A stretch of DNA of 46,772 nt from Acidimicrobiia bacterium (GTDB lineage Bacteria > Actinomycetota > Acidimicrobiia > Spongiisociales > UBA11373). Of the stretch, positions 32,787 to 37,193 are shown one piece after another. The notes under the pieces were generated by a model. The model did no database searches and was not told where the DNA came from. It saw only the letters and a program-made list of their open reading frames with translations. How positions within the stretch are numbered: the first letter of the stretch is position 1; each line of letters opens with the position of its first letter. The stretch lies in assembly GCA_016932695.1 (NCBI GenBank), contig JAFGCH010000024.1:1-46772 (forward strand), given 5' to 3'. The position numbers were made by a program, and so were the translations under genes.

Positions 32787-33338
32787 GTGATCGAGGAGAC
32801 CCTCCTGGACGGCGAGGTCAAGATGGATCACGCGGTGACCCATCTCCAGTCGGAGTTCACCACCGTGCGGACCGGGCGGGCCAATCCGGCGATCATGCAT
32901 CGGGTGATGGTGGACTACTACGGGAGCCCTACTCCGCTGCAGCAGCTGGCCTCGTTCTCCGTTCCGGAAGCCCGCTTGCTGCTGGTACACCCTTACGACC
33001 GATCCACCATCGGCACCATCGAGCGCGCCATCCTCGCTTCCGAGCTGGGCCTGAACCCGAGCAACGACGGCACCGTGATTCGCCTGGCCTTCCCGCCTCT
33101 CACCGAGGAGCGGCGCCGCGAGCTCATCCGGCTGGTGCGGCACATGGCCGAGGAGGCCCGAGTGGCGGTGCGCAACGTGCGGCGCCACGTCAAGAAGGAA
33201 CTGGAAGCTCTCTCCGGGGAGGTGTCGGACAACGACATCGAACGCGCCGAGAAGGAACTGGAGGACGTCACCCACCGCCACGTGGCCCGGATCGACGAGC
33301 TGCTCGCCCACAAAGAGGCCGAGCTGCTCGAGGTCTAG
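32787..33338 (+). CDS. frr: Ribosome recycling factor
   Basis: RRF, with EF-G, splits the post-termination ribosome. The 183-residue protein shows TVRTGRANPAIMHRVMVDYY, GSPTPLQQLASFSVPEARLL, NDGTVIRLAFPPLTEERR and the KKELEALSGEVSDNDIERAE helix. GTG 32787 follows a strong GAGGAGGAGG site. Confidence 0.96.
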   Translation: MIEETLLDGEVKMDHAVTHLQSEFTTVRTGRANPAIMHRVMVDYYGSPTPLQQLASFSVPEARLLLVHPYDRSTIGTIERAILASELGLNPSNDGTVIRLAFPPLTEERRRELIRLVRHMAEEARVAVRNVRRHVKKELEALSGEVSDNDIERAEKELEDVTHRHVARIDELLAHKEAELLEV

Positions 33339-33365
33339 CTGCGTGGACGGCGGCGAGGAGGAGCG

Positions 33366-36300
33366 GTGAGCCGCAAGGGAGATGACGACGGGTTCCATCC
33401 CCACCCGGGAGACCCCTGGCACCCGGGGTGGAGCTCGGAGGACGAGGCTGCTCCCGGCTCTGCCCCCGCCGGGGAGGAACGCGAGGTCCCTTCACCCGCG
33501 GGCGAGCCGGTCGCCCGACGTCGGTCGCGGCGCGAACGCGGGCGCAAAGGGCGTAAGGCGGAGCCGGAGCCGGTGCCGGGGATGGAGCCGCCGCCTCCGG
33601 CAGAGGTGGTAGAGCCGACTGAGGACGAGGTGCTGCCTCCCGGCTGGTGGGCGGCACCCCCAGCGGAGAGCCCCCCAGGCGTTCGGGTCGAAGCGGGTGA
33701 AGAAGCCGTCGAAGAGGCGGAGGTGGGGGAGGCCGCCGGAGGAGCCGCCGAGGCGGCCGTCCCGCTGTTCCCCTGGTGGCCTTCCGCCCCCGCAGAGCCG
33801 CCGGCGGTGGCGTCTCAGCCGCCCGCCGAGCCGCCGGCAGAGGTCGAGCCCGAGACCCCGGGGTACGAACGTGGGGCGGCTTCTGCGGTGCCGCTCGACC
33901 TGGGGCCGGGGGGAGGCCTTCCGGCGGCGGTTGAGCCGGAGCGGTCCTGGGAGGAGCCTGAGGAGACCTCGGCGCCGGCGCCCGACGTGCCCGGCGCGGT
34001 GAGTGCAGCCGACGAGACGGAAGCCCCGGTTGGAGTCGACGCCGGGGAAGCGGTGGGCGTGGCCGAAGAACTGGAGCGGGTCGCCGCCGCGCTGCTGGCC
34101 GAGATCGGTGAGGAACCCGATGTCGCCCTGTTGCCGGGTTCCGTCGGGAAGGTCGAGGGGGAGGATCTCGAGGGGACCGAAGTGGCGTTTGCCGGGGAGG
34201 AAGCCTCCCGGGAGGAAGTCGCCGAGGAGGGACCCGCCGGGGATCAAATCGCTGCGGAAGAGATCGCCGAGGTAGAGGCGGTGGAGGGCCCGGCGGAGCC
34301 GCCGTGGTCCGTGCCCCGAGGTCCCGGGGCGCTGGTGCCGTTCCCCGAGGTAGAGGGCCATGGGGAATGGCCCGCAGGCGAGAGGCTCCCCGTGTCCGAG
34401 GGCCGAGAGGCCCTCGAGGGGGAGTCTTTCGTGGAGGGCGAGCCTCTCGAACGGCAGGGGCTCCTCGAGAGGCAGGAAGGGGAGCCGCTCCTCTCTCTGG
34501 AGGAGCCGTCTTTGTGGGCGGAGGGGGAGCCTCCGGCCGGCGTAGGGGAGGCCTTGGGCGGCGAGGAGCCGACGATGGTTGGAGACGAGACGCTGCTCCC
34601 GCCCGCGGAGGATCTGGGCCTGGAGGCTCCCGGCCTCGTCCTGGCCTCGTGGGAAGTGCCGGAAGATGAGGGCCGTGCCGGGGAGGCGGGCGCCCGCGGC
34701 GAGACGGGGGGGCTGGGCACTGAGGCTGCCGGGGCAGAGGAGGCGGCCTCGGTCGCCGAGGTGGAGATCGACGAGTGGTTGGCCTTCGTGGAAGGGGTGC
34801 CCGCGGGAGGGCCGCCTCCGGGCCGCTTCCCCCCGATACCCGCCGTAGTCCCTGCGCCCGAGGCGGAGGCGCTTCCGGCTCCCGGTGAGGAGGCGGTTCC
34901 GGCCGACGAGGCCCGGCCGGCGAGCCCCCGTGAGCGGCGCCGCGGCTGGTTCCGCCGAGGGCGGAAGCCGGTCGAGGAAGAGGAAGAGGAAGAGGAAGAG
35001 GTCGCCGCGCTTGTCGAGGCTGCGGCGGGACCGGCCCGGGAACCGGCCGAGGAAGGACCCGGGCCACAGCCCCCACCCTGGGCTCCCGACATGACGGGGA
35101 CCGCGCTGGAGGTCGAGGCAACACAGGCGGGAGAGGCGGCGGAAGAGGGGACGCTCCTTTCGGCCGAGGAGGAAGAGGTCGGGGCCGAGGCCGCCTGGGC
35201 CGCCTGGGAGGCCGGGGACGAGGGGGCCCGGCCGGGCACCGAAGAAGCCGGCCGGTTGCTGCCGGAAGAGCCCGCGCCCGCCCGGTCCTGGCCGGCGGCG
35301 CCGCAGCCGCCGGCGGGAAGGGCCCCGGTTGGCTACCAGGAACCCGCCGCGGAGGATGCCGAGCCTTGGCAAAGCGCCGAGTGGGCCGGGGAACCCGCGG
35401 CGGCGGCCGCCGCCTGGTACGCCGAGGTGGATGAGGACGAGGTCGATGTGCCTGCGGCGTCGCTGCCCGAGGACGACTGGGAGTCGGCCGACGAGGGCTG
35501 GGCTCCAGCAGCGGAGGCCGTTCCCGGGAGTGGGGCGGCCCGGCCGCAAGGGCCGGGAGGTGCCCGAGCCGGCGCACCCATCCTGGGGGTGGACGGTGGG
35601 GGAGCCGGGGGGCCCGCGGCGGGTTGGGCCGCGGCGGAGGATCTAGAGGAAGCACTGGAGGAGACAGAAGAGGACTGGGGGGCGGAGTCGGTCGCCGCCG
35701 AACTAGACGAGGCGGAGGAGGGGGTGGGGGTTCCCTCGGCGGAGGAACTGGAAGCAGAGGGCTGGGAGAGGTTCCCCGAGCCCGGCGAGCAACCGGCTTT
35801 GCACCCCGAAGGCCCTTTCCCGGCGGCCGGGCCGGCCGTCGTGGAGCGGGTGGAGAGCCCGAGCCTCGAGGCAGCCGGGTGGGAGACCTTCCCGGAGCCC
35901 GGGGTACGAGCCCCCCGGTGGCCTGAGGAACCGGTGGCGGCCGGGCCGGCGCGCCTCCCGGGGCCGGAGCCCGTCTTCCCCGAGGACCGGGGTGGGGAGG
36001 CTCCCGGAGCCGAGGCGGAGCCGTGGCTGCCCGATGAAGAGGATGAAGAGGACGGTGAGGAGGAGCCCTATCCGCAGCGGCCGGCGGCCGCGGCCTTCCC
36101 CGGCGCGGCTCGAGCCTCCCGTGTGGACGAGCCGACCATGGAGATCCCGCCCCCGGACGTCTACGACTTCGAGGGCCCGAAGCCCCGTCATGGGGGCTTC
36201 GGAGAAGGCGCTCTGGGTGGCGCGCCGACCATGGAGCACCGCGGTCTGGCGGAGGAGATGGCTGCGGCCGACACCGCCGAGACCGAGTTGCAGGCGTTGT

Positions 36301-37193
36301 CGGCCCCGATGGCGGGGCTCGAATCCGGGGTGGTGGGCTTCGAGGACGTCGCCCACCTCGGCGGTGAGGAAGGAGTGGGCCTCCCCGCACGGTCCGACCT
36401 TGCGATGCGGGTGGCGACGGGGATGGTGCTCGCCGCCCTGCTGCTCGGCTCGCTTTGGGTGGGCGGGGAGTTCCTGGCCGGGTTCGTAGGGCTCATGGCC
36501 TTCCTCGGCCTGACCGAGTTCTTCGGGGCGCTGCGCCGCCACGGGTACCAGCCGCTGGCCCTCTTCGGCTTGCCGGCGGGCATCGGGATCCTCGTCGGCA
36601 CCTGGTTCTACGGCCTGGTGGCCATTCCTGTAGCCACCGTGGCGGCCACCATCCTGGCTTTCTTCTACTACGCCTTCGCCCCCCAGCGCCGCGATGCCCT
36701 GACCAACGGGGGGCTCACCATCCTGGGGGCGCTGTGGGTCACCGGCACCGCTGCTTTCGCCTTTCCCATCGCGGCTTCAACCGACTTTCGGCTGCTCATC
36801 CTGGCCGTCGCCGCCACGGTGATCGCCACCGACGTCGGGGCCTTCTTCGCCGGCCGGGCCTGGGGGTCGCGCCCAATGGCCCCGGTGCTCTCCCCCCATA
36901 AGACCTGGGAAGGCCTGGCCGGAGGGGTGGTGCTCGGCATCGGCGCCGCGGTGGCCATGGGCCACTTCTTCGACGAGATCGGCATCCGGGCCGGCGTGAT
37001 CCTGGGGCTGGTGGTGGCGGTGATGGCCCCGCTCGGCGACTTGGCCGAGTCGATGGTCAAGCGCAGCCTGGGGGTGAAGGACATGGGCTCGATCCTGCCC
37101 GGCCACGGCGGCATCCTCGACCGCGTCGATGCTTTCCTCTTCGTCCTCCCCGCGGCCTGGGTGCTGTTCGAGACGATGGGACTGCTGCGCTGA
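33366..37193 (+). CDS. cdsA: Phosphatidate cytidylyltransferase with giant acidic N-terminal region
   Basis: CdsA makes CDP-diacylglycerol from phosphatidate and CTP, the entry to phospholipid synthesis. The last 267 residues (from about 1009) are a normal polytopic CdsA with about eight helices, LSPHKTWEGLAGGVVLG, and the signature VKRSLGVKDMGSILPGHGG plus DRVDAF. The first 1,008 residues are low complexity: mainly Glu, Ala, Pro, Gly and Val, almost no Lys. There are two basic patches, near residues 50-68 (RRRSRRERGRKGRK) and 521-540 (RRRGWFRRGRK, before a run of nine Glu), and two similar LEAxGWExFPEPG units near 795 and 834. Three xPTM motifs have Thr at 403, 924 and 955. GTG 33366 has GAGGAGGAG. 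There is no internal stop or recognisable second gene. Acidimicrobial CdsA proteins often have N-terminal tails, but I know of none this long. Confidence 0.9.
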   Translation: MSRKGDDDGFHPHPGDPWHPGWSSEDEAAPGSAPAGEEREVPSPAGEPVARRRSRRERGRKGRKAEPEPVPGMEPPPPAEVVEPTEDEVLPPGWWAAPPAESPPGVRVEAGEEAVEEAEVGEAAGGAAEAAVPLFPWWPSAPAEPPAVASQPPAEPPAEVEPETPGYERGAASAVPLDLGPGGGLPAAVEPERSWEEPEETSAPAPDVPGAVSAADETEAPVGVDAGEAVGVAEELERVAAALLAEIGEEPDVALLPGSVGKVEGEDLEGTEVAFAGEEASREEVAEEGPAGDQIAAEEIAEVEAVEGPAEPPWSVPRGPGALVPFPEVEGHGEWPAGERLPVSEGREALEGESFVEGEPLERQGLLERQEGEPLLSLEEPSLWAEGEPPAGVGEALGGEEPTMVGDETLLPPAEDLGLEAPGLVLASWEVPEDEGRAGEAGARGETGGLGTEAAGAEEAASVAEVEIDEWLAFVEGVPAGGPPPGRFPPIPAVVPAPEAEALPAPGEEAVPADEARPASPRERRRGWFRRGRKPVEEEEEEEEEVAALVEAAAGPAREPAEEGPGPQPPPWAPDMTGTALEVEATQAGEAAEEGTLLSAEEEEVGAEAAWAAWEAGDEGARPGTEEAGRLLPEEPAPARSWPAAPQPPAGRAPVGYQEPAAEDAEPWQSAEWAGEPAAAAAAWYAEVDEDEVDVPAASLPEDDWESADEGWAPAAEAVPGSGAARPQGPGGARAGAPILGVDGGGAGGPAAGWAAAEDLEEALEETEEDWGAESVAAELDEAEEGVGVPSAEELEAEGWERFPEPGEQPALHPEGPFPAAGPAVVERVESPSLEAAGWETFPEPGVRAPRWPEEPVAAGPARLPGPEPVFPEDRGGEAPGAEAEPWLPDEEDEEDGEEEPYPQRPAAAAFPGAARASRVDEPTMEIPPPDVYDFEGPKPRHGGFGEGALGGAPTMEHRGLAEEMAAADTAETELQALSAPMAGLESGVVGFEDVAHLGGEEGVGLPARSDLAMRVATGMVLAALLLGSLWVGGEFLAGFVGLMAFLGLTEFFGALRRHGYQPLALFGLPAGIGILVGTWFYGLVAIPVATVAATILAFFYYAFAPQRRDALTNGGLTILGALWVTGTAAFAFPIAASTDFRLLILAVAATVIATDVGAFFAGRAWGSRPMAPVLSPHKTWEGLAGGVVLGIGAAVAMGHFFDEIGIRAGVILGLVVAVMAPLGDLAESMVKRSLGVKDMGSILPGHGGILDRVDAFLFVLPAAWVLFETMGLLR
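34974..35000 (+). repeat. (GAGGAA) tandem hexamer in cdsA
   Basis: Four and a half copies of GAGGAA encode nine consecutive Glu in the acidic region. It could change length by slippage without breaking the frame. Confidence 0.8.

Follow-up and report, generated by a model that had tools for sequence, protein, structure and literature searches.

The cdsA gene in the 46,772-nucleotide window (the whole stretch of DNA that was analysed) encodes a phosphatidate cytidylyltransferase of 1275 aa, in which a complete catalytic membrane core is preceded by an acidic, predicted-disordered N-terminal tail of 1008 aa, about four times the size of the core. Just before the first membrane helix (TM1) the tail carries a 41-residue module, conserved more strongly than the enzyme itself and specific to the CdsA of one order. 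Bacterial phospholipid synthesis branches at CDP-diacylglycerol (CDP-DAG), the product of CdsA, which is usually pictured as a bare membrane enzyme. The observation behind the original prediction, a CdsA with a very long tail, is confirmed, and its interpretation is partly supported. The module lies within the span then described (33366-36390), where it went unnoticed, and is the most valuable part of it.

The gene occupies 33366-37193 on the plus strand, stop included, as a stop-free frame of 1275 codons beginning with GTG. The Shine-Dalgarno sequence AGGAGG (33356-33361, plus strand) is 4 bases 5' of the GTG, and the single continuous frame with a strong ribosome site noted at the outset is borne out. 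The start lies 27 bases 3' of the frr stop, and the gene order is the usual one, rpsB-tsf-pyrH-frr-cdsA-dxr-rseP-ispG. An in-frame GTG at 36378, with the Shine-Dalgarno-like GAGGAAGGA just 5' of it, would yield a tail-less CdsA of 271 aa. None of the other family members examined has a similar site; a conserved internal start was therefore rejected, and the site is probably a product of chance. A tail-less isoform in this species alone is possible. An open frame of 1040 aa lies antisense to the tail (33268-36390, minus strand). It is Pro/Arg-rich and conservation tracks the plus frame, so it was rejected as coding and is a by-product of GC-rich codons in that frame.

The core (aa 1009-1275, 36390-37190, plus strand) has nine predicted membrane helices and an intact signature, S-x-V-K-R...K-D...H-G-G...D-R-V-D. 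It matches Pfam CTP_transf_1 (PF01148) over aa 1014-1269 (E 3e-52, a score of 178 bits where the cut-off is 24, profile positions 2-262 of 264), and the gathering score is thus exceeded across the domain, placing the protein in the CdsA family. This was the only PF01148 match found in the genome, which is 95.5% complete, so the gene is the CdsA of its genome. A second, divergent PF01148 protein was seen beside the tailed CdsA elsewhere in the order (L016 and G029, G033, G052, G086, G097 and G103). The core also matches the regular expression that we take to be the PROSITE signature of CdsA. The SPHKTWEG motif and the KR, KD, HGG and DR columns are invariant in alignment A3. The only solved sequence relatives of the core are the Thermotoga maritima CdsA (TmCdsA) entries 4q2e and 4q2g. 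In an AlphaFold model of aa 898-1275 most of the core has pLDDT above 95, and its best PDB matches are again 4q2g and 4q2e, with TM-scores of 0.80-0.85 by target length. The modelled core reproduces the nine-helix intramembrane fold of TmCdsA when its 40-residue third element is taken as two helices. Catalytic activity is predicted. The SPHKTWEG loop follows helix six of the model and the signature loop helix eight. In the TmCdsA structure, which has nine helices, both active-site loops are cytoplasmic, and the N-domain is a single helix adjoining the proposed CDP-DAG exit (PMC7018664). Because both loops are cytoplasmic, the N-terminus, and hence the tail, would be cytoplasmic as well.

Several observations support translation of the tail in the plus frame. 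GC codon periodicity favours this frame, indels relative to a sister species are in frame, and the dN/dS of aligned tail codons is 0.36, compared with 0.17 for the core. Together with the conserved N-terminal box described below, these features support translation in this frame. Three further pairs with long alignable tails gave dN/dS values of 0.24-0.33. Identity of aligned residues with the sister species is 47% in the tail versus 85% in the core, and ranges over 47-55% versus 79-85% across all pairs. The sister species belongs to the same genus (metagenome-assembled contig VGBK01000004.1, core 85% identical) and has a tail of 848 aa; its conserved start lies nine residues further in. Misassembly is unlikely, because this species and every uncut member of the family have long tails, including one genome assembled as a single contig. 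A misassembly or one-off oddity was accordingly rejected. Several other assemblies break within the tail; in those cases a separate contig carried the missing N-terminal part. In one copy (L153, genome G063) the CdsA frame seems to be shifted inside the tail, with the N-terminal box located upstream on that contig in a different frame.

The tail (aa 1-1008, 33366-36389, plus strand) is, as originally described, rich in Glu, Ala, Pro and Gly (19, 18, 14 and 13%, respectively) and strongly negative, with 23% acidic and 5.5% basic residues and a net charge of -180. Base composition predicts the reverse (acidic about 6%, basic about 19%), and an origin of the acidity as a GC by-product was accordingly rejected. 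All 80 tails examined in relatives are net negative where base composition predicts net positive. The middle of the tail is free to vary in sequence among relatives and keeps its acidity. Disorder and charge-pattern predictions, which had been suggested as checks, place the charge-hydropathy value on the negative, disordered side and show uneven charge patterning (z about 5 versus shuffles). The mean AlphaFold pLDDT over the tail is 37, and 932 of its 1008 residues score under 50; these values are supportive rather than decisive, because the alignment there holds only two sequences. The tail is thus predicted to be an intrinsically disordered region. Of the disordered cytoplasmic tail first proposed, the disorder agrees with these predictions and the cytoplasmic side is predicted from topology. 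The label 'low-complexity' fits the composition but not the conserved islands within it, the module and the N-terminal box. The tail contains 28 Trp and only minor tandem repeats, so simple repeat expansion was rejected as the whole explanation. Two related repeats, GWERFPEPG (aa 799-807, 35760-35786, plus strand) and GWETFPEPG (aa 838-846, 35877-35903, plus strand), also occur in the sister species. None of the library families covers the tail, and a piece of it searched against its own genome matched only itself. Three CDP-alcohol phosphatidyltransferase matches in the same genome (frames of 215, 291 and 416 aa) have no comparable tails.

The membrane-proximal module, TMEHRGLAEEMAAADTAETELQALSAPMAGLESGVVGFEDV (aa 955-995, 36228-36350, plus strand; HMM match 36213-36362), has the consensus T-x-E-x-x-G-L-A-E ... 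A-V-A-A-x-M-P-G-x-E-S-G-V-V-G-F-E-D-V. Across 75 orthologues its mean pairwise identity is 52.6%, while the core reaches 44.8% and the module flanks 15-20%; the module figure is slightly favoured by selection, because the search expression missed six fetched copies in which the module is visible. Module identity equals or exceeds core identity in 85% of orthologue pairs. Each of the 14 family genomes has a single HMM match to the module, in CdsA, with the next best matches at E 0.01 or worse. Across the class it occurs once in each of 49 genomes of the order, always in the CdsA frame, and in none of 101 genomes of other orders. In the family genomes no protein other than CdsA was found to contain the module or the N-terminal box; shared motifs therefore do not point to a partner, and partner identification by this route was rejected. 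In the AlphaFold model the module forms a helix of low confidence (pLDDT about 55) that makes no confident contact with the core; the alignment in that part comprised only two sequences. Families with tails of about 100 aa keep the module, indicating that its role does not depend on a very long spacer. Its conservation and its restriction to this order suggest that the module is a putative site of docking or control at a key step in lipid synthesis.

The N-terminal box, FHPHPGDPWHPGW (aa 10-22, 33393-33431, plus strand), is conserved across three families within the order; its consensus is F-x-P-H-P-G-D-P-W-H-P-x-W (HPGDPWHPxW), with eight residues invariant in 16 chosen alignment rows. All 26 order genomes with matches at E <1e-4 have the box in a CdsA frame or on a piece that would fit a split CdsA, and it is confined to CdsA or such contig-split fragments. 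Short-tail copies of family f8 (L175-L192) often begin with F-x-RPWE, perhaps a counterpart of the box. Basic patch 1, EPVARRRSRRERGRKGRKAEP (aa 47-67, 33504-33566, plus strand), follows the N-terminal box, and a basic-aromatic patch 2, RPASPRERRRGWFRRGRKPVE (aa 517-537, 34914-34976, plus strand), lies in mid-tail. Uncut family tails have two such patches, near aa 40-65 and in mid-tail and often with aromatic residues, against about 0.01 expected from shuffles; in the f1 member L125, whose start is mis-called, the mid patch alone is clear. The uneven charge and the basic patches are compatible with condensates without demonstrating them; no result of the analysis supports the condensate formation, or the role in the division or envelope machinery, that the original prediction put forward.

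The suggested comparison of N-termini found tails where their absence from relatives would have counted against the original prediction. A tail is present in 14/14 family genomes, at 480-1008 aa in the nine uncut ones, and the comparison also brought out the conserved islands. In the order, 130 of 138 genomes have a CdsA match. Uncut tails there (80 fetched copies) span 102-1013 aa, a tenfold range in which the tail studied here is the second longest. Long tails occur in families f1, f4 and f7, and short ones (mostly 102-197 aa, one of 232) in f2, f3, f5, f6 and f8. In the core tree, which is midpoint-rooted with several forks open, f4 clusters with the short-tail families yet shares the N-terminal box with f1 and f7. 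For this reason the long tail with its box may be ancestral and may have been shortened more than once. Among the matches listed, CdsA frames in other orders of the class are mostly long too. In another family of the class, with genomes of roughly 1 Mb, the frames are 307 aa and the tail is nearly lost. Beyond the class, the majority of frames span 256-390 aa and about one in four is longer than 450 aa; these lengths were measured stop to stop and are upper bounds. Since long frames occur in other orders and outside the class, a CdsA tail as such is not unique; the novel part is the extreme length and the motifs. Searches of an open-access library (as distinct from subscription papers and most preprints) gave no description of a bacterial CdsA tail of this kind.

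The reading we favour, to which we give about an even chance, is a disordered acidic tether through which conserved motifs for docking or regulation are joined to the synthesis of CDP-DAG. A putatively working CdsA would convert CTP and phosphatidate to CDP-diacylglycerol, while the tail, flexible and negatively charged, extends into the cytoplasm as a tether. The module sits just before TM1, beside the site at which TmCdsA presumably releases CDP-DAG, and would most likely dock a partner, such as an upstream or downstream enzyme of lipid synthesis, or control CdsA itself. At the far tip, the Pro/Trp box and the basic patch behind it could capture a second partner or the membrane, with the linker setting the reach. 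The middle of the tail would be selected for charge, flexibility and a range of lengths rather than for exact sequence. A specific contact is argued by the extreme conservation of the module beside TM1. Because the module out-conserves the enzyme and is order-specific, specific docking or regulation is indicated rather than an electrostatic brush only.

The same conservation could reflect self-regulation in cis, in which the module and basic patches touch the core, the dimer partner or anionic lipids of the membrane (phosphatidate, PG, cardiolipin) and thereby adjust activity or the product gate, with no other protein involved. The module always lies just before TM1, which corresponds to the N-domain proposed as the CDP-DAG exit gate in TmCdsA (PMC7018664), and basic-aromatic patches in several relatives, such as GFLRRIFGNR and GWLGRVFARR, resemble short membrane-binding helices. 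The model, however, shows no confident docking of the module, patch 2 of the CdsA studied here is basic but not clearly amphipathic (mean hydrophobicity -1.25), and the CdsA of other orders lack the module entirely; on balance, regulation in cis is unlikely, though worth keeping in view. The bulk of the tail could instead act as a generic charged brush or condensate-forming membrane region, in line with the original prediction, with sequence-specific partners secondary. That the conservation peaks at two short elements and not in the bulk, and that tail length varies tenfold among relatives, make this quite improbable, even though the net charge of -180, the uneven charge, the 28 Trp and the two strong basic patches have the look of stickers and spacers. 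We consider it more doubtful still that most of the linker arose by neutral expansion of GC-rich codons, tolerated on a flexible terminus, with only the module mattering. Huge length variation, indels and fast divergence of the linker (47% versus 85% identity) would be expected of such expansion, but the acidity opposes mutational expectation in 80/80 tails, dN/dS is well below 1, the box and patches are kept at the far end, and tandem repeats are few. The near-loss of the tail in the genomes of roughly 1 Mb fits a neutral and a selected linker alike.

Under the favoured reading, a tether bearing docking or regulatory motifs, a conserved CdsA-specific element outside TM1 on a very long disordered arm suggests that across the whole order this step is tethered to some further factor or controlled by it. 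The module is a defined 41-residue target for testing. A broader proposal, which we put forward only tentatively, is that an order-specific, CdsA-only docking module, more highly conserved than the enzyme and borne on a tunable acidic tether, organises phospholipid synthesis as a membrane hub, and that tails of sister orders do the same job with different motifs.

Tails of roughly 240-575 aa are present on the CdsA of other Acidimicrobiia orders (L018-L030), in which no match to the module or N-terminal box was found. Recurrent boxes in those tails (for example L019, L022, L024, L026, L027 and L030) are VRIxGAEPA near the start, PHWTxPPTGxVPAVL, a WREE/WREG stretch and RRPWEFDL. Conserved tail motifs seem to be particular to each order. 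The core resembles that of bacterial CdsA (TmCdsA 4q2e/4q2g, PF01148) in sequence, fold (TM up to 0.85) and active-site signature; unlike TmCdsA, the protein studied here adds a 1008-aa tail with order-specific motifs. The CdsA of E. coli, cyanobacteria and Thermotoga have no hydrophilic N-terminal tail of such a kind, and Plasmodium CDS has a long, poorly conserved N-terminal extension that is reported to be needed for rescue, while the catalytic part is enough for activity (PMC7018664). The Plasmodium enzyme is a precedent only, as a CDP-DAG synthase with a long N-terminal extension; it comes from a eukaryotic parasite, its protein product is cleaved, and no sequence relation is claimed. The C-terminal linker of FtsZ is disordered, variable in length and sequence, and joins a folded domain to a short conserved peptide that binds partners (PMC9939409). 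By analogy, the CdsA tail may follow the same principle, a variable disordered linker between a folded domain and a conserved short motif. The two proteins are unrelated, however, the partners of FtsZ are known, and the best-conserved module of this CdsA adjoins the core rather than the tip.
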